A DNA stretch of 24,607 nt from a virus. This document shows, one piece after another, positions 1 to 21,960 of this stretch. Where the stretch lies: the IMG/VR virus record IMGVR_UViG_3300027126_000207, positions 1 through 24,607 of that record; one strand, given 5' to 3'. Position numbers and translations under genes: made by a program. Each line of letters begins with the position of its first letter. The stretch's first letter is position 1. Under the pieces are notes generated by a model. That model saw only the letters and a program-made list of their open reading frames with translations. It searched no databases and was not told the origin of the DNA.

Positions 1-521
1 TCCTCGGCAGAAATATACTTATCTTGCTTAGAACGGTATATCTTTTTGAGGTCTTTTGCACTAAGTCCGGTTTTTTCAATGATATTCTTGTCAATTATTT
101 TTTGTAAACGAATAGACTCAACCATATTTTCTTCGTGCTCAGTTGTCTTACCCAACGCCATGTAACCAGCTTCATGCCACATGTAAGAAGAACTTTCAAA
201 ACAAAAGCGTTTGTGGCCATTGATTGCCATAATAAACCCAGCCGACATAGCACAACCTGTTGCAATGGTATGGATTGGTGTGGTGCAATTACGCATTATT
301 CCTACGAGTCCGAGACAGGCATATGCATCACCGCCCGGAGTGTTTATGTAAAATTTAATTGGTTCTGGGGTGTAATCTAAACCAAATACAGCAGCATGTT
401 TCTTTAGACGTTTATCGTGACTTTCGATTTCAACTATTATTGCGGAAATCTCCCCAATAGTTTCTTGGGTTACGTCAGTATAGAAGAATATGTTTCTTTC
501 AAGGGGGTTTTCAAGGTTCAT
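1..521 (-). CDS. clpP: ClpP-like serine protease (partial, 3' end outside window)
   Basis: Reading from the ATG at 521-519 gives 173 residues before the window edge, so the C-terminus is missing. The fold signature of the ClpP/S14 peptidase family is clear. There is an FYINTPGGDAYA stretch (about residues 57-68, the ClpP oxyanion-strand motif), a nucleophile region TGCAMSAGF with Ser93, and SYMWHEAG with His116. A late SKQDKYISAEE has Asp167 where ClpP has its third catalytic residue (RDRFLSAPEA in E. coli). The triad is therefore intact. ClpP subunits form tetradecameric chambers that degrade proteins handed over by Clp ATPases; no ATPase is visible here. A Shine-Dalgarno AAGGAAA lies about 6 bases upstream. 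In a phage it could serve in head maturation or could remodel host proteolysis; which one is inference. Family assignment is firm, role is not. Confidence 0.9.
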   Translation of the reverse strand, partial: MNLENPLERNIFFYTDVTQETIGEISAIIVEIESHDKRLKKHAAVFGLDYTPEPIKFYINTPGGDAYACLGLVGIMRNCTTPIHTIATGCAMSAGFIMAINGHKRFCFESSSYMWHEAGYMALGKTTEHEENMVESIRLQKIIDKNIIEKTGLSAKDLKKIYRSKQDKYISAE

Positions 522-569
522 AGTAATTTCCTTTTATTTTAAACTGTTTTTGTTATTTGCTGCGAGATT

Positions 570-598
570 AATATATCACATTTGTAACAGTATGTAAA
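570..598 (-). promoter_or_regulatory. sigma70-like promoter for the ClpP-like gene
   Basis: On the minus strand TTTACA (598-593) and TATATT (575-570) are separated by exactly 17 bases, and the gene start lies about 50 bases downstream. It stands back-to-back with the plus-strand promoter at 604-632. Read by eye only; transcription is not shown. Confidence 0.5.
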
Positions 599-603
599 GG
601 TGT

Positions 604-632
604 TTGACAAACCCATTTTAAAAAATTATACT
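604..632 (+). promoter_or_regulatory. Strong sigma70-like promoter for the 656-1061 genes
   Basis: A perfect -35 TTGACA (604-609), a 17-base spacer and TATACT (627-632) lie 24 bases before the ATG at 656. This is close to the bacterial housekeeping consensus, as expected for a phage early promoter read by unmodified host polymerase. Confidence 0.7.
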
Positions 633-655
633 ATCAAAACAACATAGGAAACCAC

Positions 656-841
656 ATGAATACCACATATAAAATGCCGTATGAATATGAACTACTTGAA
701 GATTTCTCCCCTTTCAAGAAAGGAGATATGTTATGTCTTTCACGCAGAACTGTCATATACAATCCAAAATACCATGCATTCAATCATCCCGAAAAATATG
801 AAATTGTTTTTATCCCAATTGAAAAGTTGAAGAAATTATAA
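656..841 (+). CDS. Small protein of unknown function (61 aa)
   Basis: The ATG at 656 follows a Shine-Dalgarno AGGAAA about 6 bases upstream and sits just behind a near-consensus promoter. The 61-residue product is soluble, rich in Tyr, Pro and Lys, with no signal peptide, membrane segment or Cys motif. I do not recognise a family. The KKGDMLCLSRR stretch around residues 22-32 suggests a small beta-rich domain, but this is a guess. It is followed after one base by the next gene, so the two are surely co-transcribed and probably translationally coupled. The small size and promoter type suggest an early host-takeover protein. Confidence 0.7.
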   Translation: MNTTYKMPYEYELLEDFSPFKKGDMLCLSRRTVIYNPKYHAFNHPEKYEIVFIPIEKLKKL

Positions 842-842
842 A

Positions 843-1061
843 ATGTATCTTTTTACTGGAATGATGAGAGTTGTTGATTCTAGAAGTGATTATAGAATAA
901 AATTGATCAACATAAAGTTTAGCAATCCATTGTGGTTATCATCAATTGATGAAGTATTTGTATTCAAAAAAACTATTGATTTGATTTATAACCCTAAAGG
1001 CATTACAGTTGATGATTGTGTATTATGGATGTTGAAAAATAATCCATACAGTTCTAAATGA
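843..1061 (+). CDS. Small protein of unknown function (72 aa)
   Basis: It starts one base after the stop of the preceding gene, with no good ribosome binding site of its own beyond purines inside that gene, so translation probably depends on coupling. The 72-residue product is basic and contains a VDDCVLWMLKNN helix-like C-terminus. No family is recognised. Its stop codon lies inside the left arm of the perfect inverted repeat at 1050-1104, so the last four residues are encoded by the repeat. Confidence is for being a real gene. Confidence 0.65.
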   Translation: MYLFTGMMRVVDSRSDYRIKLINIKFSNPLWLSSIDEVFVFKKTIDLIYNPKGITVDDCVLWMLKNNPYSSK

Positions 1062-1104
1062 TTTTTACACCAAAAACAATTAGGTGTAAAAATCATTTAG
1101 AACT
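1050..1104. repeat. Perfect 22-bp inverted repeat with 11-base loop
   Basis: Bases 1050-1071 are exactly complementary to 1083-1104, around the loop AAAAACAATTA. The arms are AT-rich (starting AGTTCTAAATG) and the left arm contains the stop codon of the upstream gene. A hairpin this long would be very stable in RNA. However, no T-run follows on the plus strand (CTTATTAATAA), so it is not a standard intrinsic terminator. It may instead be an attenuator, an RNA 3'-end stabiliser, an RNase III site or the scar of a mobile element. Confidence 0.9.
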
Positions 1105-1142
1105 TATTAATAACTCCATTGACACAGACGCAGAGGGGACGT

Positions 1143-1613
1143 ATGATGACTAAAGAAAATATGAACGGTAATAATCCGGTAGTGATTGAAATTGATGATG
1201 TTATTGATACCACAATTTATTTCAATTGGGGTGGAAACGGTATTGGTTTTGGACAACTGGATATTAGAAATGTTGACGGTAAGTTTATTTGTTATAACGA
1301 GTGTATGTCACGTCAACAGGTTCGTGAATTGTTGATTGCATATGCCAATCATATGGCTGATATTGTTGAACTGACAGACCCTAATGAAAGTTCGAAAGGA
1401 TTTGAAAAAATACCACCAATTATAAAAGGTGTTGTCAAAGTTTGCATGGACTTCTTTAGTTTTAAAGAAGGGGCATATGTTGAGAAAATTGGAGATTTCA
1501 TCAAGAATACAAATGGTGATATGCTTCAATGTAAAGATATTCCTTACGGTGGAACTATACCCATTCGAGGTTATGTTACTAAAGAAGAACTGTTGTCACG
1601 CAACAGTGTTTAA
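1143..1613 (+). CDS. Protein of unknown function (156 aa)
   Basis: I place the start at ATG 1143 (or the adjacent ATG at 1146) because a strong Shine-Dalgarno AGAGGGG lies about 4-6 bases before it. An in-frame TTG at 1119 would extend the frame but has no ribosome binding site. The product has 156 residues with an acidic N-terminal half (VIEIDDVID) and a later MDFFSFKEGAYVEKIGDF segment resembling a small beta-barrel turn. There is no membrane segment and no recognised family. It lies after the 22-bp inverted repeat and before a terminator, so it is the last gene of the left plus-strand unit. Confidence 0.7.
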   Translation: MMTKENMNGNNPVVIEIDDVIDTTIYFNWGGNGIGFGQLDIRNVDGKFICYNECMSRQQVRELLIAYANHMADIVELTDPNESSKGFEKIPPIIKGVVKVCMDFFSFKEGAYVEKIGDFIKNTNGDMLQCKDIPYGGTIPIRGYVTKEELLSRNSV

Positions 1614-1687
1614 AGTATCATTAAAACCTCATAGGAGGCGTTTCTAGGCGCTTTAAACATTTGACAATATCTTTGCTCATATAAAAC

Positions 1688-1712
1688 AAAAAGGCGCTTT
1701 AAGCGCCTTTTT
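1688..1712. terminator. Bidirectional intrinsic terminator
   Basis: The hairpin arms AAAAAGGCGCT and AGCGCCTTTTT (1688-1698, 1702-1712) are perfectly complementary around the loop TTA. They give a GC-rich stem with a T-run on both strands. It lies between the convergent plus-strand gene ending at 1613 and the minus-strand sheath gene ending at 1731, so it can serve both. Confidence 0.9.
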
Positions 1713-1730
1713 GGTGTGTTTAAAACGATA

Positions 1731-4700
1731 TTAAACAGCGTTGTTAAGAATTGCGATTGCTTCATCGAACGACAAGGTTGCTCCGACATTAATGAAGTTC
1801 AATTCAATGAAGTTGATAGAATACTTAGGTTTGATGTATATTCTACCCTTGAACTGATTCAATGCAACAACTTCTGGGGTGTTAACCTTTTCAGAAACGT
1901 CGATTGCATAATCTTCAACGCCACGACCAGCTTTAACACCACGCAAGTATTTGTCGATGATACCATAAACTTGTGTACGTGTAGAAGCATCATTGAACTC
2001 GAACAATGCAAAACGTGCAGCATTTGCAAGAGTCTTTTCAATAACGATGAACAATCTTCTAGTTGGTATACGGTTAAAGCTTGAAGAAATGTTTAACAAT
2101 GTCTTGTCACCATAAATCATCGAGCCAATTCCGGGGAATGTAACAACAGGGTTTACACGGTTAGAGTACAATTGGTCACGTTGGGTTTCATTCGGATTGA
2201 ATGCCAACTTGACAACATTGTTCAATATACCACGCTGTTCACCAGCAGCAGAATACCAAGGGTCACGTAAACGATCTGTACGTGCATAACATCCAGCATG
2301 ATCACCAGAAGTAGGAATCCACCAGTAACGGTCATTGTACTTATCGTACATATATTTCCAACCTGAATCTAATTCAGCATATGATGTTGATGGTAATTCA
2401 TTAACATCTTTTAGTATTTCACGGACTTCATTGCGTGGATTGTTAACAACGGATTCACGACGACACGAGAAAAATACCATAGAGTCACGACGTTCTTCTG
2501 CAATATTCTGAATCAAATAGTTAGCTAAAACAGCATTAGGAATACCTGCTGCGTCTTTAATAGAACGCCAGTTGCCAATTATAATTGGTGCGTCAGTTTC
2601 TTCTGGGTTTCTGAACAAATCGTATCCAGTTATATCATCATCAATACCCATAGTGTCAAATGAATCGTCACCACCAACTAATACTAAACTATTAGCAACC
2701 CAATCTGTACCTTGCGCATCAGTGTCTGTAGAGGCTTTCAAAAATGGGATACCGTCCAAAGATGCAGAACCCAATCTGATATAAACAGAACTTGTATTAA
2801 TGCGGTTTAACCAATAATTACTTGTCCCATCCAAGTTCTTAGCAGTAGAGCTAAATGACAAGTTGGTAAACTTCTCAATAAGTGAACCAGCAGTACCAGT
2901 AATTTGACCCAATGCGTCATAAACAACAACGTGTATAGACTCGTCACTAGGAGCCAAACCAATAACGTTACTGAATCTCCACAAACGACTAAACTCAGTT
3001 ATAGATGGGTTTGACAAACCGGAAGAATCTTTATAATCACCTGTCGAAACAGTACCAGAATAAAGTTTATCTATTTCAATTATATCAACAGTTTCAACGA
3101 TAGCATCGGCGGCAGCACCAGTACCATTACCTACGAAAGCAACAGTAGCACCAGCACTATAACCAGAGCCACCATTTGTAACCGTAACGGACGCTACAGC
3201 ATAACCTAAAGTAGCAGTTAACGCACCACCAGTACCTGAACCAATGCCTGTGAATGTAACAGTTGGTGCAGTTTTATAACCAGCGCCAGCATTTGTTATG
3301 TTGATAGATGTAATTACACCTGAACCATCGGTCGTAATAGTACCAGTCGCAGGTGTAGTTGGCGTTCCACCAGAGAATACTAACGCACCAGTCGCAGAAG
3401 CAGTGTAACCAGAACCAGCATTATCAATTGCAATAGCTTTAACTGAACCAGTAGTTGCTAAAACTGCTGTTGCAGAAGCACCTGTCCCAGCGCCAGTCAA
3501 AGATACTGTTGGTGCTGCGGTATAACCTGAACCACCATTGGTCAAATTGATTTTTTGGACAGAATATGCACTACCTAAAGTAATACCCTTAACCTGATAG
3601 CGATTACCATTAATAACCATCCAGTCACCAAGATCGAATATTGATCTGGCAGATTTTGTTGCTGCTGCTCTAACATAATAAACTTTTTTATCACGTGAGA
3701 AATAGAATAAATCCTTATTGACATATTCATTATTCACGTTGTCATCATTATATTTTGCGATCAAATCAATTTCATATTTGTATTCATCGGAAGTGGCAAT
3801 AGTTGCTGAGTTTGTTACGAAACCAACACCAATACTATTACCAAGCTCACCAGAATAACGTGCAATAAATGTATTTGATGCCAAGTCACCATCTGATAAG
3901 TTGGTAAAATGATCATCATTCAAAATTGTTATTGCACTTTCGGCAGTAGATGTAAGGGTTACGCCGCCATCTATAAGACCATTATATTTTACAATAACAG
4001 TAGCATTTTTGTTCAAATATGTTGAACCATTGTACGATGCCAAACGTACAACGTCTAATGCGCTTGAGTACGACAAGTATGAAGCTGCGGTGAAAAAGTC
4101 AATAGCGTTGTCAGCATTAGTACCGGGTGTACCAAAATAGACTCCTAATGTCTCTTCATTAGCTATACGAATGCGCTCAAGGCATGGCCCCCAGCGGAAC
4201 TTGCCTGCAAAACAACCGTTAGTTCCTACAAACGGTTCTGCTATACCACTAAGGTCAGTTTCTTTTGTGTAAACACCAGCGGATACTGAAAATGTCATGT
4301 CACTTCCTCTTTTTAATCCTAAAATTCCTTTATCACTATTTAACCCATCTGTTTGTATTTCAAACATTAGGTTCCTAACGTCGATATTACCTTCATCATC
4401 ACCGGCTATTATAGTGACGCTATAAACTATTCCTAATTGTAACCCTGTGAATTGATATGATCCATTTGGAGATAGATTTAATCCCCCTTGCCCAAAAAAT
4501 GTTAATATATCAACTCTAGTTGCGTCTTGGGTTGTATAAACAAGTTCTACGGTTCTTTTATCAATTTGATTTAAATTTGCAGTTAATATAACAGGCAAAA
4601 CATCAATTTCAATTCCAGCGTCAAATACTGTATTAGTGTTATTTACAACACTTGATGATATATTTATATCAGACGCAATTAAATCAAATGATTGATTTTC

Positions 4701-5297
4701 ACTGGTGCTAATCAATGGTTCATTATATGCAGTAACAGTAACTGTATATGGGTTTAAGGCAGCAAATGCATTTATACTTAAACCATTAAAAGTATATGTT
4801 CCGCTTGCTGGTGCATTAAAATCTGAATATACTATTACGTTCAATGCGTTAGTAATAACTATCTCAACATGATCAATCGCATCAGAAGACCATGATATTG
4901 TCATGTCATGACTGTCTAAAAATAGAATATCTGATAAATTTAAACTTAATATTGGTCTTGGTAAAACTGTAATAAATGGATTCCTGTCAACCGCACCCAA
5001 TACTGTGCCATCTTCTGAAAAATCAAAAATTACTGTGTACGGGATAGTGCTGTTATTTGTACCATCAACTTCTAATGTTATAACCAAACGGAAAAAATCA
5101 TCGGTGCTAAAATATGATACCGGAACTTGACCAACTACAATTTGTTGCCCATTATATTCAGCAATGATATTTTGTGTAATATAATCATAACCAATTAGTA
5201 TAGGTGAACCCGGTATGGGTTCACTACTAAATGACACATTATATTCATTGAAATAGATATTGCTACCACTATATGTGTTAGCTAATGTGGATGGCAT
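1731..5297 (-). CDS. gp18: Tail sheath protein (T4 gp18 family) with N-terminal Ig-like extension and inserted repeats
   Basis: The 1188-residue frame is far longer than T4 gp18 (659). The C-terminal part from about residue 900 is a clear contractile sheath: IIGNWRSI, WKYMYDKYNDRYWWIP, FPGIGSMIYGDKTLL (about 1050), RIPTRRLFIVIEKT and FKGRIYIKPKYSINFIELNF. The canonical sheath N-terminus (SAGVYTKET, then GKFRWGPCLERI) begins only at residue 334. Residues 1-330 look like two or three Ig/fibronectin-type beta domains with recurring YTFNGL and YQFTGL strands. Residues about 580-730 hold four Gly-Ser-Gly-Tyr repeats. The ATG at 5297 has AAGGG upstream, but a second ATG at residue 334 has an even better ribosome binding site. 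Either a fusion, or two in-frame products from one frame. The sheath assignment is firm. Confidence 0.93.
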   Translation of the reverse strand: MPSTLANTYSGSNIYFNEYNVSFSSEPIPGSPILIGYDYITQNIIAEYNGQQIVVGQVPVSYFSTDDFFRLVITLEVDGTNNSTIPYTVIFDFSEDGTVLGAVDRNPFITVLPRPILSLNLSDILFLDSHDMTISWSSDAIDHVEIVITNALNVIVYSDFNAPASGTYTFNGLSINAFAALNPYTVTVTAYNEPLISTSENQSFDLIASDINISSSVVNNTNTVFDAGIEIDVLPVILTANLNQIDKRTVELVYTTQDATRVDILTFFGQGGLNLSPNGSYQFTGLQLGIVYSVTIIAGDDEGNIDVRNLMFEIQTDGLNSDKGILGLKRGSDMTFSVSAGVYTKETDLSGIAEPFVGTNGCFAGKFRWGPCLERIRIANEETLGVYFGTPGTNADNAIDFFTAASYLSYSSALDVVRLASYNGSTYLNKNATVIVKYNGLIDGGVTLTSTAESAITILNDDHFTNLSDGDLASNTFIARYSGELGNSIGVGFVTNSATIATSDEYKYEIDLIAKYNDDNVNNEYVNKDLFYFSRDKKVYYVRAAATKSARSIFDLGDWMVINGNRYQVKGITLGSAYSVQKINLTNGGSGYTAAPTVSLTGAGTGASATAVLATTGSVKAIAIDNAGSGYTASATGALVFSGGTPTTPATGTITTDGSGVITSINITNAGAGYKTAPTVTFTGIGSGTGGALTATLGYAVASVTVTNGGSGYSAGATVAFVGNGTGAAADAIVETVDIIEIDKLYSGTVSTGDYKDSSGLSNPSITEFSRLWRFSNVIGLAPSDESIHVVVYDALGQITGTAGSLIEKFTNLSFSSTAKNLDGTSNYWLNRINTSSVYIRLGSASLDGIPFLKASTDTDAQGTDWVANSLVLVGGDDSFDTMGIDDDITGYDLFRNPEETDAPIIIGNWRSIKDAAGIPNAVLANYLIQNIAEERRDSMVFFSCRRESVVNNPRNEVREILKDVNELPSTSYAELDSGWKYMYDKYNDRYWWIPTSGDHAGCYARTDRLRDPWYSAAGEQRGILNNVVKLAFNPNETQRDQLYSNRVNPVVTFPGIGSMIYGDKTLLNISSSFNRIPTRRLFIVIEKTLANAARFALFEFNDASTRTQVYGIIDKYLRGVKAGRGVEDYAIDVSEKVNTPEVVALNQFKGRIYIKPKYSINFIELNFINVGATLSFDEAIAILNNAV
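3080..3560 (-). repeat. Array of four GSGYT-type protein repeats inside the sheath gene
   Basis: Roughly 100-150-base units encode TNGGSGYTAAPTVSLTG, DNAGSGYTAS, TNAGAGYKTAPTVTFTG and TNGGSGYSAGATVAFVG. The DNA copies are diverged, with the conserved core reading GGTTATA on the minus strand around the Gly-Tyr codons. The units occupy a surface-insertion position between the N-terminal and C-terminal sheath domains. The same unit occurs at 5350-6040 and 21700-21910. Confidence 0.85.
4296..4310 (-). promoter_or_regulatory. Internal ribosome binding site and start codon for canonical-length sheath
   Basis: On the minus strand AGAGGAAGTGACATG (4310-4296) places a strong Shine-Dalgarno (AGAGGAAG) at normal spacing before an ATG. 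That ATG lies in the sheath frame (residue 334 of the long frame) and coincides with where sheath homology begins. It decides whether an 855-residue sheath is made separately from the long 1188-residue form. Confidence 0.75.
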
Positions 5298-5322
5298 ATT
5301 ATACCCTTAAAGTTTTACATAT

Positions 5323-7266
5323 TTAAGGTGTATAATGTGCTGTTACATAACCACTAAGAGTTTGACCTCCGGTTGGTACGTATCCTGACCCATTATCAGA
5401 TATCGTAACAGTTGCGATGCGATAACCAATAGCAGCAGTGAATACAGCAGATACCGTTGGTGTACCTGCTCCGGTGAATGATAAGCTTGGCACTGTTAAG
5501 TATCCTGACCCACCATTTGTTATCACCACACGTCTTACAATGCCACCAACAATATAAACGTTACCAGCCGCACCTGTTCCAGAACCACCAGTGAAAACTA
5601 GAGGATATGTTCCGTCAGTATAACCAGAACCGGCATTATTAATAGTAACATAATCATTCACCGATTTTGTCGAATCTATAGTTGCGGTTGCAACTGTAGT
5701 ATGACCACCTGTACCAGTAGGCCCACTAAAAGTTATTGTTGGTGTTGATGTATAACCTGAACCAGTTTCAATTATAGTAACTGATGTTATAGCATAACCA
5801 ATAAATGCAGTTAATACGGCAGCCACTGTTGGTGTTCCGGGGCTTCCACCTATTCCTATAGTTGGTGATGTTGTGTATCCGGAACCGCCATTAGTAACTG
5901 TTGCCGATGTAACAACACCACCAGAAATAGTCACTGTACCAACCGCACCTGAACCTCCCCCACCAGTGAATGTCATTGGATATGTTCCGTTAGTATATCC
6001 AGAACCTGCATTTATGATGGAAACTGTTTTATTAACAGACTTTGTAGAAGCAATAACAGGGAATAATGCAGCGCCCTTTGTTGAACCACTGGTAGACACT
6101 GTTATGGTAGGCATCGCCATAAACTCAATCCAACCCGATCCAGTTAAAACTTTTACTTGGCCTGTTGTTAAAACTTCTGCCGCTGTTTTATAAACCAATG
6201 ATTGTGCAACACCATTGATGCTTATTGCAGCATCACTTACTAATGTGGTTGTTGTCAAACTATTAAACTTGCTATTAAAATATCCACTTGATGTTGAAAC
6301 ATTACCTGCTTTAACTAAACGGCGTGGCTCAAAATATGTAAGTTTAATTTCATTGAAGCCTAATGTTTTTGAAACATTAGATGTTAATTGAACAAATGGA
6401 TATAAATTTCCGGATGTTGCAGTTGGGAATGCGTATGCCAAAACCCCATCAACATAAAATGATATTTTATTTGCGGCATCCCTAGAAATTGATATCACAC
6501 TGTCAATAGAGGGTAATTGACCATACACATAACTAGATTGACCAGACCCTGTAAACGCCAAATTTCCTGTTGTTGCATCAACATATGCATATGCAGTATT
6601 GGCTGAGTATGTAGAACCACTATATGTACAGACCCCCATTCTTCTTTCATCGGCAAAGGCAGATGACGGAACTGGCATTGATGAAAACTTAAACTTTAAT
6701 GTAAATTGGGTGTTATCTGGTATTACATTATCACCTATAAATTGGGTCGAACCATTTTCTTGTCCAGAAAAAGTTCCTTTCTTTTGTGTTCTTAAAGTAG
6801 AGTTTAATGCAGAAGTATTGGGTGATACTTGACTAAAGTTTACATATTCATCAATTAATTGACCATAGTATGCATTTGGCACTAATGTTGTAGTACCACC
6901 CATATTGACATTATAGAAGTCTGTTATTCTTTCCACTTGACTTGGATAATAATTAAACTTAAATGTATAATCAGTTGCGTTATCTTTCATCAACCCATCA
7001 CCAACAACAAATGACATAGATTCACCTGCTACGAAATGAGGGGTTGTTGTTCCGTTAACAAATGATATTTTTAAACCGTCCAAAAATGTCTCAGAACTGG
7101 TATGACATGTTTTTGCATTGGTATTTCCCAACACCCAATTACTACCATCCCAACCATATGATTTCCAACAAACAGATTTATATGTGTTGTAATTTGTAGA
7201 TGCCGGGTCAATTATCAATGGAGATACTGAGAATCTACCCAACGCTTCTAACCAATAAACCATCAT
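5323..7266 (-). CDS. Large virion protein with lectin-like domain and GSGYT repeats (probable C-terminal half of the 7263-9761 frame)
   Basis: The 647-residue frame opens with an ATG overlapping the upstream stop (ATGA) but has no Shine-Dalgarno. Its frame is also open upstream to about 7374, with sensible protein sequence such as YYSNNGDLCVNGQCPVVYLQ. It is therefore more likely the continuation of the upstream gene after a one-base shift than an independent gene. Residues about 150-300 look like a concanavalin/LamG or SPRY-type jelly roll (TLKFKFSSMPVP, ISISRDAANKISFYVDG). Residues about 410-640 are six Gly-Ser-Gly-Tyr repeats, and the frame ends GYVTAHYTP. A role as tail-associated adhesin or structural fibre is inferred from composition and position next to the sheath gene. 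Confidence 0.75.
   Translation of the reverse strand: MMVYWLEALGRFSVSPLIIDPASTNYNTYKSVCWKSYGWDGSNWVLGNTNAKTCHTSSETFLDGLKISFVNGTTTPHFVAGESMSFVVGDGLMKDNATDYTFKFNYYPSQVERITDFYNVNMGGTTTLVPNAYYGQLIDEYVNFSQVSPNTSALNSTLRTQKKGTFSGQENGSTQFIGDNVIPDNTQFTLKFKFSSMPVPSSAFADERRMGVCTYSGSTYSANTAYAYVDATTGNLAFTGSGQSSYVYGQLPSIDSVISISRDAANKISFYVDGVLAYAFPTATSGNLYPFVQLTSNVSKTLGFNEIKLTYFEPRRLVKAGNVSTSSGYFNSKFNSLTTTTLVSDAAISINGVAQSLVYKTAAEVLTTGQVKVLTGSGWIEFMAMPTITVSTSGSTKGAALFPVIASTKSVNKTVSIINAGSGYTNGTYPMTFTGGGGSGAVGTVTISGGVVTSATVTNGGSGYTTSPTIGIGGSPGTPTVAAVLTAFIGYAITSVTIIETGSGYTSTPTITFSGPTGTGGHTTVATATIDSTKSVNDYVTINNAGSGYTDGTYPLVFTGGSGTGAAGNVYIVGGIVRRVVITNGGSGYLTVPSLSFTGAGTPTVSAVFTAAIGYRIATVTISDNGSGYVPTGGQTLSGYVTAHYTP
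5350..6040 (-). repeat. Array of about six GSGYT-type protein repeats
   Basis: Six units with cores such as NAGSGYTNGTYPMTFTG, TNGGSGYTTSPTIGIGG, ETGSGYTSTPTITFSG and TNGGSGYLTVPSLSFTG recur at roughly 110-130 bases (5377, 5500, 5618, 5752, 5872 and 5990 for the Gly-Tyr cores). Two pairs of units alternate in type (TDGTYPLVFTG versus SPTIGIGG), which suggests duplication of a two-unit block. The family matches the arrays in the sheath gene and at 21700-21910. Confidence 0.88.
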
Positions 7267-9761
7267 ATTAGATGTTTGTAAGTATACAACAGGGCATTGA
7301 CCATTAACACATAAGTCTCCATTATTAGAATAATATGTTTGTATTGCAGTCGTAGTTGTGTCAACTGGCCAAACTTACAGAAAAACTCGGCGCTCGTTGC
7401 TGTTACGGTAGACGGCAACACTGAAAAATTACTTCCATTAACAAAGAATGCTGACGTGACATTATTGGATGTTGAGCCTGTTAATACCGGATAGGTTCCT
7501 CTTGGAGAATATACGTTTGATGTACCAAAAAATGCACCATTAACACCTGCAACACTAGCAGGTAATGCACGAATAACACTGCTAATAGTCCCGCCTGTTT
7601 GTTTTGATGTCCATGATACAGGTGGTGTCGCACCAGACCAAGTACACATATAAAAATCATATGAAGAGTAAACACCAGATGAAACGCCTTGGTTTATGTT
7701 ATAAAACCAATACCCATTCACACATTTTAAAATGTCTGATCTTGCTAATAAGTTTGCAAGGGTATATGTTGTCGATATACCAGTAGTCATTGGGGTTGTC
7801 GTTAATGTACTTCTTTCCCACCACACATATGCAGATGCTGAGTTACTAGTTGAAGTTGGCGCAACACCTAAAACAAACAGAATTCTATCATTTGCATGAT
7901 CTGGGTCAACACACATTGCTCCGACGTTAGACCAATTTGAGTTGGTTATACCAGTTGCCGTAAATCCATTACTAGTGTTATAGACTGTCCATGACCATGT
8001 AACGCCGGAATCTGCGGTAATGCCTTTACACAAACCACCTTCAAACAAAACCCATAAATCACCATTTGTTTTAACATCTATTTGATATGCTTTTGACGAA
8101 TCGACGCCTGCGCCTATAGTTGTTAATTGTGTTACAGTGGTGAATGTTGGGTCTATTTTCCACAACCCTGTTGTGGAACATGTGACGAAAATATATCCGT
8201 TTGAAACAGCAACGTCAGAAACATTGGCGACAGGTAGTGATGGGGTTGAAGCAGAGTTCAAAACCAATTTTTCCCCGGTTTCAACATTATAAATTGCGAT
8301 AGCTGCTTTTGTTCTTAAACAAGACGCTGTAACAAAATGTTTTATATTGTCTGGTGTTCGAACAGTTGTCCCCCCACTTATAACTTTGTCAAATGTAAAT
8401 GTATCTTTAAAGTCATTACGATGGTAACATAAAATATCGTTTGTCAAACCATCTTGAGGCAATATGGCATCACGAGGGCAATATGTATTTTGAACAAAAC
8501 CACCAGTAAATGACAACTTATCTATTTTATAAGTGGCAGTAGACTCAGTTCCACCAGATACAAAATTAATTTTGTATAGCGATGGATACGGTGATTGAAT
8601 CCAACTTGACGCATCTAAAGAAATACTACCTTTAGATGATCCCAAACTGTTCAAATCTTGAAATGGCCCCGGAGCAGAAGAGGTCTGTTTGAATATGTTT
8701 TGAATAGGTGATGTGCCATCTGGTAATACCTTTTGGTTTGCAAATGGTGCATCTAAAAAATCTATAGACGAACTACTTGATATATAAGCATTAGTTGTAC
8801 TTTTACTGTTAAATAAAGTTAGAGAGCGAATGAATGCGCCCATTGAGTTTATATCAGTGGCAGCATATGTTCCGGCTGCTTGTGAAGCATTTTGAAAAAT
8901 TGATTGATTTGTTATATTAATTATACCCATATCAGACATTTTGCTCACGAAATTAACAGTGTTTCGTGACAATCCAAATGGTTTTGCCTTTGTCATATTA
9001 TTCACGTCATAAAAACTACTTGCCCCGAAATAACCATTTGTGTTAAAAGGAACAACAGTACCACCATTTGAAGTTGCTGTAAACAAACTTCTCATCAATG
9101 CATAATAACTATCAGATATAGTTCCACTACCACTAACAAGATCATCCAAATATATCTTATAAGTAACACGCACAACGGTAGAGGTGTCTTGTATACACGG
9201 TGTTGTCAAGCGTAGATTCGTTAAAGCCGCATCCATAGAAGCGCCACGAGGCCCGGAAGCATGCCCATAATACGAAATACTTACACCTACACCATAAATT
9301 GTTCTATTTGATGTTGTTGGTAATAGATCGGCAACGAATGTAACATAATCTTTATCGCCGGGCAAAGTTTTAGCAACGAATGTTGGATATCCAACATTCG
9401 TGTTTACGGCAGCGGTGAATGGTAAGCTATAATTAGTTATATCTTGCTTAAAATCGTAAGTAGCGAACAATATTTGCCAATACAAAGATGGCGTGCCTGT
9501 AGCTGGTGTTGTATTTGGCATACTATACACAGCATTATTAATAGATAAAAAGGACGCACAAAGAATTGGCCAGCAAATATCATTAAATTCTGGCTCAGTT
9601 GTTTCATATACTTCATTGGTGTTTATATCTATTTTTTCAATAGTAACTACACCCGTAGCGCCAATTTGATTAGACGATGGAAACAATTCCTCATTCGTTT
9701 CATTTGTATATTCATTTATTTTTACAAGAGTGTTCATGTCATTTTTTATCTTTTCATTCAT
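7263..9761 (-). CDS. Large virion protein with beta-propeller and Asp-box motif (probable N-terminal half, frame broken near 7370)
   Basis: 832 residues, starting at ATG 9761 behind a Shine-Dalgarno AGGTGG and two bases after the upstream stop. There is no signal peptide. Residues about 480-720 look like a beta-propeller: NIKHFVTAS, VSDVAVSNGYIFVTCSTTG and GLWKIDPTFTTVTQL, with TADSGVTW matching the sialidase/BNR Asp-box pattern S/T-x-D-x-G-x-T-W. The last 30 or so residues (after FFCKFG) are out of character and correspond to a shadow frame. Adding one T to the TTT at about 7371-7373 would join FFCKF directly to WPVDTTTT and the following 5323-7266 frame, giving about 1,480 residues. The likely role, inferred from context, is a tail-fibre or receptor-binding protein. 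Confidence 0.8.
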   Translation of the reverse strand: MNEKIKNDMNTLVKINEYTNETNEELFPSSNQIGATGVVTIEKIDINTNEVYETTEPEFNDICWPILCASFLSINNAVYSMPNTTPATGTPSLYWQILFATYDFKQDITNYSLPFTAAVNTNVGYPTFVAKTLPGDKDYVTFVADLLPTTSNRTIYGVGVSISYYGHASGPRGASMDAALTNLRLTTPCIQDTSTVVRVTYKIYLDDLVSGSGTISDSYYALMRSLFTATSNGGTVVPFNTNGYFGASSFYDVNNMTKAKPFGLSRNTVNFVSKMSDMGIINITNQSIFQNASQAAGTYAATDINSMGAFIRSLTLFNSKSTTNAYISSSSSIDFLDAPFANQKVLPDGTSPIQNIFKQTSSAPGPFQDLNSLGSSKGSISLDASSWIQSPYPSLYKINFVSGGTESTATYKIDKLSFTGGFVQNTYCPRDAILPQDGLTNDILCYHRNDFKDTFTFDKVISGGTTVRTPDNIKHFVTASCLRTKAAIAIYNVETGEKLVLNSASTPSLPVANVSDVAVSNGYIFVTCSTTGLWKIDPTFTTVTQLTTIGAGVDSSKAYQIDVKTNGDLWVLFEGGLCKGITADSGVTWSWTVYNTSNGFTATGITNSNWSNVGAMCVDPDHANDRILFVLGVAPTSTSNSASAYVWWERSTLTTTPMTTGISTTYTLANLLARSDILKCVNGYWFYNINQGVSSGVYSSYDFYMCTWSGATPPVSWTSKQTGGTISSVIRALPASVAGVNGAFFGTSNVYSPRGTYPVLTGSTSNNVTSAFFVNGSNFSVLPSTVTATSAEFFCKFGQLTQLRLQYKHIILIMETYVLMVNALLYTYKHLI

Positions 9762-9763
9762 TA

Positions 9764-12565
9764 TTAGCCACCTATTACTGCGCCATTGTATCTAAAAATT
9801 GTAAAGTTCAACCCTGTGTGAACTGTTGCGTATTGTGTTGTTATATTATCTTCACCCGATACCGGCTCCATAACATATATTGTATTTGTTCTATTATATA
9901 CAATGTCAGATGTTGCCATTGTATTAATTGTTGTTACATTATCACTTCCAACAACATCACTAATCACATAAATTGTAGAAGTTTTGGTTGCATTAATACT
10001 AGTATCGCATGTCATTTGTGAAGCAACTAGGTTGGCGGTCATTGATGATGTTGAGTAATCAACATTAGTGTAATAAACAGTCGCAACTCCATTTATATCA
10101 AATACAGAACCTATTCTAAATGGAACACCTACTATTAATGGTTGATATGTTCTGCTGTCATTTAGAGTTGAAACATGTAATGTTTCCCAATAACCATTAA
10201 TGTTTGTCTCCAATGTGGTATAAAGAAAAACACTGCGATAATATTTTTTTGTATCAGTATCTGTTTCATAAAATGCTAGCGGCAATGACCATTCAATACC
10301 ACTAGTATACAAATTATATGTACCAGAGCTATTGAATGGAATATTGTAATCAAAATAATCACTACCAATTAAACTATATGACATAACATATAAATTGCTA
10401 TCATTACTGACCGCAACATTCAAAGGTGTTTCTATGCCAATATCATTATTTTTGAATATATCCGTTGGGGTTGAATATATGATTACGTCTTTATATTGTT
10501 CGTTATACTTTCCCTTGTCTATCCAAAAACGAAAAATACGATCACGAGATGAACCATCAATTACGTAGTGTGCTTGTGTTTGAGAATCTATTAATAATGT
10601 AATGGGGTCGCCACTAATCAATTCCCAAAGGAATGTGTGACCTGACATATTACCAATAACAGTAGATTCCAAATAAACAATAGGATCACATATTCGCTGT
10701 TGGTCATCACCTGCTGAAACTAAAACAATATCATTTTGTGGACGTACAGGAATAATAGCCATCGTTCCGTATACTGGATTTTGTGTTGTAGTTACAGAGT
10801 TTTGTTTTATATCAATAATATCATCTAATAGTGTATTAGATGAATTGAACAAACCAACTCCTATTTTTGCTGGGACGGGTGTATCAAACGGTAAGTTTGG
10901 ATAGTTGAAACTCATCCAACGAATGTTGGAACTGTCATTCTTATATCGTATGCTATTAACACGTTCAACATATGCTGACCCTACAATGCTGTATGTTGGG
11001 GTTCCTGTTATTGAGTCATTAACGGTATATGCTAAAAGTTTTCCATTTTCAACATATGAGTTTATAGCATCATTGGCTTCAACACTATGATTTATTGATG
11101 TTGGGAAACTTACATATTCTTCGATGAATATTTTTTCAAATATATCATATTCATCATAACTAGGAGTATAAAAGGTAGGGTTTAACGTCTTTAACTTAGT
11201 AGTGAATAAAATACGAGTTCCTACGTTGTTAAACACGGCTTTTCTTATAACGCCTTCATATTGGTTATTAGATGAAAACAATTGTTGGTTCATATTGTAA
11301 TTAATACGTATGGTCGTATTATTTTGTGTGTCTCTAAAAAACCAATCAACATCAGTATTTGTGTCACCTGAAACAATGTCATTACTGAAACTGGTAAACG
11401 CCAATGTATCATTTGTTACCCATGTGTATCCTAATACATTGCTTGATATATTTCCATTAGTTGCAGATTTAGATACACGGGTTAATATTCTTGTATCTAA
11501 ATCTTTGAAATACAAATTATCTATAGGGTTTGTTGACGAAGGATCAATATTATATGAGTTTGATATAAATGCTACCTTAGTTCCATCAGGCGAAAATGTA
11601 GCATTTTTGGAATAACCATTACCATAAATAGTCTCTAAGCTATTTTCATTCAACGGTATTATTGTATCGTTCGAAAAGTCATAAACGAAATCATCTACTA
11701 ATCCATTTGTGTCTGAAGTTATAGAAGTTCCGGTGGTTATGCGAAATAACATCTTGGTTCCATCATCAGACCAAGTTAGTGTTTCAGGTGTAACAATACC
11801 AAAACCAAGAATTTCTGGCAATTCTTGCACACGTTGTATTGATGTATCCACCATATTTTTTATGACAAATCCCAATTCATATGAATAGAAAGAAACTTTA
11901 TTTGGAGCAACCGCAATGTTTATACAGCTACCAATAAAATAAGGTGTTATGTTGGTGTCTTCTTTTCTGGAAACGTGAATTATGTTTCCAGAAGAAATGT
12001 TTTTCATATAAACTTCATAATGTGAATTTATATTAATACCACTTACTAAATTATTAGAAAGGGTAACAAAAACAACGTTGTCATTATCATACCATAATGC
12101 TTCGTTTCTGTCTATATTATTGCCAAAAACAGAAGATGTGGATGAAACACGGGTAAATGACGTATCAACAAAATCATATACATACCATCTATTTCCACTT
12201 GGATTTTGCGCAGATAAAATCGTATCAGCGGGTATTAAATTTGTTGATGTAGTTAGAAAAAGTATTTTGGAACCATCAGGAGAAAATGCCGCATTGTATA
12301 CCAATTCGTTTAACGTAGTGTTTGGTGGAAGTGGACAACTACCGTTTCCGCTGTTTATCTGAAATAAATCATTTGTTATTAAGTTTTTACAATATAATTG
12401 GTAAGTAGATAGATATGTATCGTTTTGATAGTCATAGTCTTGAACCCAAAAAGCAACTTTAGTGCCATCTGGTGAATAAAACGGATACAAACAAGTTGAA
12501 TGTATAAGAAGACCATTCTCTTGAATTGAAATAATGTTTAGTGTTTTATCCAATAATACTTGCAT
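9764..12565 (-). CDS. TolB/PD40-type beta-propeller virion protein with C-terminal Ig/PKD-like domain
   Basis: 933 residues from ATG 12565 with Shine-Dalgarno AGAAGG. The first 450 residues carry about eight propeller blades of the TolB/PD40 type: FYSPDGTKVAFWV, AFSPDGSKILFLTT, TWSDDGTKMLFRI, TFSPDGTKVAFIS. The outer strands have the TRVS and SNDIVSGDTNTDVDWFFRD patterns typical of secreted bacterial PD40 proteins. Residues about 600-670 resemble a PKD/Ig-like domain (VSAGDDQQRICDPIVYLES, then HTFLWELISGDP). The rest is beta-rich and unrecognised. First gene of the large minus-strand structural block, divergent from the tail-tube-like gene. No enzymatic residues seen; a binding or adhesion role is inferred. 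Confidence 0.82.
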   Translation of the reverse strand: MQVLLDKTLNIISIQENGLLIHSTCLYPFYSPDGTKVAFWVQDYDYQNDTYLSTYQLYCKNLITNDLFQINSGNGSCPLPPNTTLNELVYNAAFSPDGSKILFLTTSTNLIPADTILSAQNPSGNRWYVYDFVDTSFTRVSSTSSVFGNNIDRNEALWYDNDNVVFVTLSNNLVSGININSHYEVYMKNISSGNIIHVSRKEDTNITPYFIGSCINIAVAPNKVSFYSYELGFVIKNMVDTSIQRVQELPEILGFGIVTPETLTWSDDGTKMLFRITTGTSITSDTNGLVDDFVYDFSNDTIIPLNENSLETIYGNGYSKNATFSPDGTKVAFISNSYNIDPSSTNPIDNLYFKDLDTRILTRVSKSATNGNISSNVLGYTWVTNDTLAFTSFSNDIVSGDTNTDVDWFFRDTQNNTTIRINYNMNQQLFSSNNQYEGVIRKAVFNNVGTRILFTTKLKTLNPTFYTPSYDEYDIFEKIFIEEYVSFPTSINHSVEANDAINSYVENGKLLAYTVNDSITGTPTYSIVGSAYVERVNSIRYKNDSSNIRWMSFNYPNLPFDTPVPAKIGVGLFNSSNTLLDDIIDIKQNSVTTTQNPVYGTMAIIPVRPQNDIVLVSAGDDQQRICDPIVYLESTVIGNMSGHTFLWELISGDPITLLIDSQTQAHYVIDGSSRDRIFRFWIDKGKYNEQYKDVIIYSTPTDIFKNNDIGIETPLNVAVSNDSNLYVMSYSLIGSDYFDYNIPFNSSGTYNLYTSGIEWSLPLAFYETDTDTKKYYRSVFLYTTLETNINGYWETLHVSTLNDSRTYQPLIVGVPFRIGSVFDINGVATVYYTNVDYSTSSMTANLVASQMTCDTSINATKTSTIYVISDVVGSDNVTTINTMATSDIVYNRTNTIYVMEPVSGEDNITTQYATVHTGLNFTIFRYNGAVIGG

Positions 12566-12585
12566 TTTACCTTCTCATTTTTGTC

Positions 12586-12593
12586 TATTTACA
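12586..12593 (-). promoter_or_regulatory. Late-promoter-like motif before the PD40-propeller gene
   Basis: The minus strand reads TGTAAATA (12593-12586), about 20 bases before the ATG at 12565. It differs by one base from the T4 late consensus TATAAATA and shares GTAAATA with the element upstream of the capsid gene. Weak on its own because the region is AT-rich. Confidence 0.4.
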
Positions 12594-12605
12594 ATAGGAG
12601 TGTTT

Positions 12606-13094
12606 ATGACAGATTTATACCAAAATTTAAACAAACTTACTAGCAATCGTGCAACCCTAGAGTTTTCAGCATTTCCACATTTGAGTTTTACATTACAACG
12701 TTATCCTTTACCCGGAATAAATCTTGGGGTCGCCCAACAATCTTCGCCTTTATTTGATAAACCGATTTATGGTGACAAATTATATTTTGGTGACTTATAT
12801 TTGGAGTTTGCTGTTAGTGAAAACATGCAGAATTGGTATGAGGTATTTAAGTGGATGTGGGGTATAGCCAATCCGTCAGAACATCCTATCAGTGCAGAAT
12901 TCACATATGTTGACGCAGCAATGACAATATACACCAGCCATAATAATCCAATGATGAAGGTTACATTTATGGATGTGGTTCCTGTCTCTTTGGGTGAACT
13001 TGATTTTAGTGAACAAACATCAGAAACTATGGAAATATACAGCATGTTGATATTGAAATATCAACGTTACGAAATAGAGTTTTATGACGTTTGA
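12606..13094 (+). CDS. Tail-tube-like structural protein (gp19/gp54-type fold)
   Basis: The start is ATG 12606 behind AGGAG (12596-12600). The in-frame upstream extension to 12534 overlaps the divergent gene and lacks a ribosome binding site. The 162-residue product has the pattern of a family common in T4-like phages: FSAFPHLSFTLQRYPLPGI, then PIYGDKLYFGDLYLEFAV, then NWYEVFKWMWGIANP, and a C-terminal KVTFMDVVPVSLGELDFS. This family is related to tail tube or tube-initiator proteins, whose subunits stack into the channel for DNA delivery. Whether it is the main tube (gp19) or a tube-associated protein (gp54-like) cannot be decided by eye. It is on the opposite strand from the sheath, unlike T4 where 18 and 19 are adjacent. 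Confidence 0.7.
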   Translation: MTDLYQNLNKLTSNRATLEFSAFPHLSFTLQRYPLPGINLGVAQQSSPLFDKPIYGDKLYFGDLYLEFAVSENMQNWYEVFKWMWGIANPSEHPISAEFTYVDAAMTIYTSHNNPMMKVTFMDVVPVSLGELDFSEQTSETMEIYSMLILKYQRYEIEFYDV

Positions 13095-21555: not shown

Positions 21556-21960
21556 TTATTGCGGGGTATATGTTATGGTTTGATAGTAATAAGAAGAACC
21601 GCCAATTTTTGAAATGACGACCCCACCAACAACATCCCAACCATCAGTTGTAAAAACATTAACCTTGGTAACTAAATCATCTAATGTTGCAATTGCTGTT
21701 GCCGAGCTTCCACCACCACCAGTAATAGTAACAGTTGGGGTAGCCGAATATCCCTTACCGGAATCTAACATTACGATAGAGACAACACTACCATCTTCAA
21801 TAACTGCAAATGCGGATGCCCCGTGGCCGGTAGTATCTCCGTTTGCAGGGGTAATGGTAACAGTTGGCACCGAAGTATAACCACTGCCAGCTTGGTCTAC
21901 AGCGATACTTTCAACACCACCATTTGTCAAGTTTCTTGACGAAATAACTTTATAATCCAT
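21556..21960 (-). CDS. Small GSGYT-repeat protein (134 aa)
   Basis: ATG 21960 with AAGGAAGG upstream, four bases after the previous stop. The product is largely two Gly-Ser-Gly-Tyr-type units: DQAGSGYTSVPTVTITPANG (about residues 22-41) and LDSGKGYSATPTVTITGGGG (about 66-85). They are flanked by a short N-terminal MDYKVISSRNLTNGG and a C-terminal domain (VTKVNVFTTDGWDVVGGVV). The same repeat occurs in the sheath and in the large propeller protein. It could be a decoration or fibre-like accessory protein; no cell-envelope signal is present. Function is unknown. Confidence 0.75.
   Translation of the reverse strand: MDYKVISSRNLTNGGVESIAVDQAGSGYTSVPTVTITPANGDTTGHGASAFAVIEDGSVVSIVMLDSGKGYSATPTVTITGGGGSSATAIATLDDLVTKVNVFTTDGWDVVGGVVISKIGGSSYYYQTITYTPQ
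21700..21910 (-). repeat. Two GSGYT-type repeats in the small capsid-linked protein
   Basis: Cores GSGYTSVPTVTITP (about 21850-21890) and GKGYSATPTVTITGG (about 21720-21760) match the units in the sheath gene and the large propeller protein, 15 kb or more away. Confidence 0.8.

Follow-up and report, generated by a model that had tools for sequence, protein, structure and literature searches.

The whole stretch of DNA analysed here (the window) comprises 24,607 nucleotides of an uncultured virus, IMG/VR record IMGVR_UViG_3300027126_000207, and, to judge from its sequence, belongs to a T4-like myovirus. Its minus strand contains a single open frame of 1188 codons, running from an ATG at 5297 to a TAA ending at 1731, which bears out the view of the initial annotation that the sheath frame starts 333 residues ahead of the canonical sheath N-terminus. 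The first 333 residues (4299-5297) form an N-terminal extension, probably made up of Ig/FN3-like beta domains (frame and sub-cut-off domain matches), and positions 1731-4298 encode a T4-type tail sheath of 855 residues plus the stop codon, recognized by its family profile and predicted fold, whose canonical Met is Met334 of the long frame. A junction linker of 17 residues, DGLNSDKGILGLKRGSD (residues 317-333; 4299-4349), contains no recognized domain; the sheath frame is open through it and the other two frames contain stops. The internal sheath start is preceded by the Shine-Dalgarno sequence AGAGGAAG (4303-4310; duplex score -5.8) and the long start by AAGGG (5304-5308; score -4.0), the latter lying within a predicted RNA hairpin of 17 pairs (5294-5340) that covers this Shine-Dalgarno sequence and most of the start codon. 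Upstream is a gene for a virion-protein-like protein of 647 aa with GSGYT repeats (5323-7266), the 3' end of which forms the 5' arm of the hairpin. All of these features are on the minus strand. An identical 1188-residue protein is encoded in the same frame by a second metagenome contig, IMGVR_UViG_3300027123_000198 (L001; hereafter the sibling).

Profile matches in the window include a major head protein (phrog_138, E 1.9e-148), a tube protein (phrog_45, E 6.1e-19), and a UvsY-like protein (phrog_231, E 1.7e-31). The gene order is unusual: the sheath gene follows three large minus-strand genes, and the tube gene is on the plus strand near 12606, so that within 1731-13094 the two genes are separated and differ in strand. 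Among the six annotated phage records used for this comparison (a seventh record has no annotation), five show the order terminase, sheath, tube, and portal, some with genes interposed; in the sixth, phiN3, the terminase is followed by the sheath, and the stretch shown has no annotated tube gene. The genes clustered upstream of the sheath also include one for a 933-aa protein with PD40/WD40-like beta-propeller repeats (9764-12565, minus strand; E 5.2e-9). A ClpP-like head maturation protease (3-521, minus strand; phrog_94, E 9.1e-17) is truncated by the window edge; in the sibling contig the frame goes on, to a length of 185 aa (L293, 1242-1799). The strongest fold of the window is a 25-base inverted repeat at 1050-1104, located between plus-strand reading frames, with 96% complementarity, 5-nt spacing, and a folding energy of -31.5 kcal/mol (z -7.3, minus strand). 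GSGYT-type repeats, which match many phage structural families, are found on the minus strand in the sheath insertion (3072-3587), in the upstream 647-aa gene (5362-6138), and in a 134-aa gene (21598-21930).

In a profile search, residues 333-1181 of the long protein matched phrog_23 'tail sheath' (E 2.7e-89); in Pfam, the C-terminal sheath domain scored over the cut-off and the sheath domain slightly under it. An AlphaFold2 model of the full protein, calculated from an alignment in which the window was joined by 32 relatives, out of 36 non-redundant loci, had a mean pLDDT of 57, with a good sheath core and poorly modelled Ig part and repeat region. In the PDB, this model best matched sheaths from Klebsiella phage KP1 and T4 (E 1e-30 to 1e-20). 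The family match along the protein and the predicted core fold both assign it to the T4-type sheaths. It resembles these proteins (gp18; phrog_23) in family profile and predicted core fold and has a start signal at the same N-terminal position, whereas it carries 333 more residues in front, in frame, and a repeat-bearing insertion at about residues 571-742, which resembles the repeats of the upstream gene. The canonical Met with its start signal is present at the sheath N-terminus, although the frame runs 333 codons further upstream.

The nature of the extension is less clear-cut. Residues 1-333 matched the Pfam domains SdrD_B (E 2.7e-4) and fn3 (E 0.014), both below the curated cut-offs, and piecewise searches gave weak and mixed matches. 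Against PDB sequences, a monobody chain (E 0.27) and an unrelated regulator (E 0.2) were obtained. A single-sequence model of the extension was mostly beta with low confidence (pLDDT 37), and a structure search with this model returned nothing at E <= 0.001; FN3 and Ig-type adhesin chains were among its top rows, which is suggestive only. This single-sequence fold was dropped as too poor. The Ig/FN3-like label of the initial annotation is thus weakly supported and retained in a softened form, since the Pfam matches stay under their cut-offs and the all-beta model is of low confidence; the extension probably consists of such domains. When homologues of the extension were searched for, the sibling contig alone was found in IMG/VR, and neither the phage collection (searched to E 0.1) nor the GTDB genome contigs nor 284 fetched loci totalling 2.18 Mb (E up to 1; window and sibling copies excluded) contained any.

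The distribution of the fused architecture was surveyed by six IMG/VR scans with varied sheath queries. Each scan contributed at most its 80 best matches, out of 116 to 599 confirmed candidates. With seven phage records added, this gave 450 loci, every one with a forward sheath match. The N-terminus is contained in 425 of them; collapsing identical junctions left 338, and dropping seven at contig ends left 331 distinct sheath N-termini. Copies of the window and of the sibling (L080-L084, L291-L293) had been removed before the survey. The sheath start is preceded by at least 100 open codons in only one of the 331 (best 80 per scan), namely the sibling, and by at least 40 in three (again among the best 80 per scan): the sibling, L005, and L337. 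In L005, 74 codons are open and the first in-frame start is 24 codons upstream, and the 46 open codons of L337 include no start codon. Since taking the best 80 per scan favours the nearest relatives of the query used, the survey is a sample and not a census; among the 331 N-termini sampled, the fused architecture is rare at the sequence level.

The initial annotation had also described a Shine-Dalgarno sequence before an in-frame ATG at the point where sheath homology begins, and this was confirmed: AGAGGAAG occupies 4310-4303 and the ATG at 4298 encodes Met334. This column is invariant when the window is aligned with 32 relatives, although these were picked by a match beginning there. In 312 of the 331 surveyed relatives (best 80 per scan), an ATG stands exactly at the first Met of the query, and in 17 more it is at most 10 codons off; two could not be scored for start position. 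The Shine-Dalgarno sequences of the 328 relatives scored (sibling left out) have a median score of -7.1, none being weaker than -3.5, and GGAG is present in 260 of them. The score of AGAGGAAG, -5.8, is below the median strength, with 304 of the 328 equal or better; its core and score are the same as those of the major capsid gene of the window. Of nine in-frame ATGs in the frame, Met334 ties with codon 560 for the best Shine-Dalgarno score, and in a control using 17 frames of the window, a score of -5.8 or better was seen at 14 of 120 internal in-frame ATGs (sheath ATG included). The score by itself therefore says little, and it becomes telling because it is placed at the canonical sheath start. 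This start is also predicted to be open in the RNA (Shine-Dalgarno accessibility 0.44; ATG 0.99 unpaired). Another ATG, at 4367 (residue 311), follows a weaker Shine-Dalgarno sequence (-3.9) and could yield a 23-residue extension. We consider it very probable that the sheath is produced mainly from 4298.

A separate sheath promoter was considered as well. The motif TATAAATA, which we take to be a late-promoter motif, occurs within the Ig part, 363 nt ahead of the sheath ATG. Its exact matches in the window number two, where 4.18 would be expected, and it was therefore given no weight; with one mismatch allowed, there are 78 matches against 84.33 expected. The scan of the window for this motif revealed no promoter signal separating long and short products.

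The start at 5297 presents a different picture. In the predicted hairpin (5340-5294), the AAGGG Shine-Dalgarno sequence and two of the three start-codon bases are paired, and the 5' arm contains the stop codon of the upstream 647-aa gene. Of 24 hand-picked gene starts of the window, no other has as low a folding energy (-21.1, with -14.3 for the runner-up) or as inaccessible a Shine-Dalgarno sequence (0.02, with 0.28 for the runner-up). The significance of the hairpin depends on how the comparison is framed: none of 200 shuffles was as stable in one framing (z -4.1), and 10 of 1000 were in another (z -2.8). On the minus strand, 9 of 818 windows are at z -4 or lower. The hairpin is not listed by a gapless repeat finder run on the window, and since no T run follows it, it does not have the look of an intrinsic terminator. 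It may be opened by ribosomes terminating inside it, as would be expected of translational coupling.

The sibling aligns with positions 1-5763 of the window at 99.55% identity (24 mismatches and two gap openings over 5763 bp). In the coding sequence of the long frame, the two differ at five positions, all synonymous and all within the sheath part; the Ig part and the 466 bases upstream of it are the same in both. Because the Ig part is identical in both contigs, selection on it is not readable from this pair. The initial annotation had proposed a comparison with close relatives, and in this one the frame is kept open through the junction. The possibility raised there that an assembly or sequencing indel removed a real stop between two genes would fit the stops in both alternative frames of the linker, but it is highly improbable, since the same frame occurs in two non-identical contigs and the error would have been needed twice. 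The density of stops at the junction is also that of the background. The cluster had been described correctly, with eight stops over the other two frames within 24 codons, but it is not unusual: at least eight are found in 18.8% of 309 equal-sized windows of the Ig part, and four further places in the frame have three successive stops. Since such stops are ordinary background in the rest of the frame, their clustering was rejected as a sign that a gene boundary had been lost. A natural loss of the stop between two former genes is a possible origin of the fusion. Sixteen random codons at the base composition of the window are open 31% of the time, and the missing stop thus requires no special cause. 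The in-frame N-terminal extension of the tail sheath, with its kept internal start, is real as well as rare in the sample surveyed.

Several readings of this arrangement can be compared. The initial annotation had offered, beside the indel, a genuinely long sheath and a nested gene giving a long and a short sheath. The nested gene fits best, and is supported in part, because the canonical Met and its Shine-Dalgarno sequence are kept and a long extension was found elsewhere in the sibling only (331 N-termini sampled). In this reading, the segment coding for the Ig-like part lies in frame just ahead of the sheath gene, no stop parts the two, and the start signals of the sheath were retained inside the fused frame. 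Ribosome entry at 4298 would give an ordinary sheath of 855 aa, of which most of the tail would consist. The hairpin, which extends into the 3' end of the upstream gene and may open as ribosomes finish that gene, would restrain initiation at 5297, from which a smaller amount of an Ig-sheath of 1188 aa would be made that could join the tail as decorated subunits. We consider the chances about even that the locus makes an ordinary sheath from the internal start together with a minor, possibly translationally coupled Ig-sheath. Our fuller proposal, in which initiation is dual, the N-terminal Ig-sheath is a minority product, and a hairpin gates the long start until the upstream structural gene is translated, is a tentative one. 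The frame, its occurrence in a second contig, the kept start signal, and its rarity among the relatives are observed in the sequence, and the hairpin is predicted; that both starts are in use, in what ratio, and that the long form enters virions is inferred.

The main rival is that the fusion is accidental or a dead end: the internal start alone would be used, the Ig part would be made little or not at all or be degraded, and the missing stop would have no function. This is doubtful in our assessment, although the occlusion of the long start in the predicted RNA, the chance opening of a 16-codon run, and the limitation of the extension to one near-identical contig pair within the databases searched all agree with it; against it, neither contig interrupts the 333-codon frame, and the extension has its own start with a Shine-Dalgarno sequence. 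A frame open from end to end and a Shine-Dalgarno sequence at 5297 would suit an obligate long sheath, with 5297 as the sole start and the Ig part on all subunits. Such a sheath is improbable given that the canonical start and its Shine-Dalgarno sequence are retained, that the start at 5297 is the most occluded of the 24, and that no relative among the 331 (best 80 per scan) besides the sibling has a like extension. The N-terminus is moreover the link between subunits in the sheaths of other phages. In phage P1, it is described as pairing with the C-terminus of a neighbour and swinging nearly 100 degrees on contraction (PMC10304247), the same handshake is described for the XM1 sheath (PMC10457771), and residues 1-21 of the Kp24 sheath are described as extending to subunits of the ring below (PMC9700779). 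A large addition is consequently less likely on all subunits than on a few. It is also conceivable, if unlikely, that the two parts act as separate proteins, the long product being cleaved near the linker, as a putative event, or the Ig part acting alone; the linker that parts them and a ClpP-like protease gene in the window would be in keeping with this, though nothing ties that gene to the Ig-sheath. An ordinary sheath with a minor Ig-sheath thus remains our preferred reading.

Ig-like domains added to sheaths are described as common, with a proposed role in adhesion or stability (PMC9230969), and weak adhesion to cell-surface sugars has been proposed for Ig-like domains of virions (PMC9230969, PMC8718954); by analogy, the extension may serve such weak adhesion. 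The protein studied here would resemble those sheaths in its probable Ig-like beta domains. As described there, the sheath core is formed from both termini with the additions elsewhere, and the sole extra N-terminal part mentioned has about 30 residues, whereas here 333 residues precede the core (PMC9230969). Minority Ig extensions made by frameshifting are described for capsid and tube proteins (PMC5009743, PMC8718954), and a suggestion reported there is that chance decides whether a mobile Ig domain inserts in frame or not (PMC5009743). The long form of SPP1 gp17.1 (3:1) and the coat protein of phage T3 derive two virion proteins from one gene, the longer with an Ig-fold domain, which is only proposed for the present case; as described, those extensions are C-terminal, arise by recoding, and are carried on the tube or capsid (PMC8718954, PMC5009743), whereas the one here is N-terminal, on the sheath, and proposed to depend on an internal start. 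The 3'-end frameshift of phage Ig/FN3-like decorations is not seen, the extension being at the 5' end and in frame. In the open-access literature searched, we found no report of an internal-start Ig-sheath or of a sheath with such an N-terminal extension. If the preferred reading is true, the locus would represent an N-terminal route to Ig-decorated virions that does not involve frameshifting, and the dual-start form, on the sheath as the moving part of the tail, would be another route to mixed virions. The system has simple signals, two start sites and one hairpin, and would probe how far a contractile sheath tolerates additions at the terminus that links its subunits.
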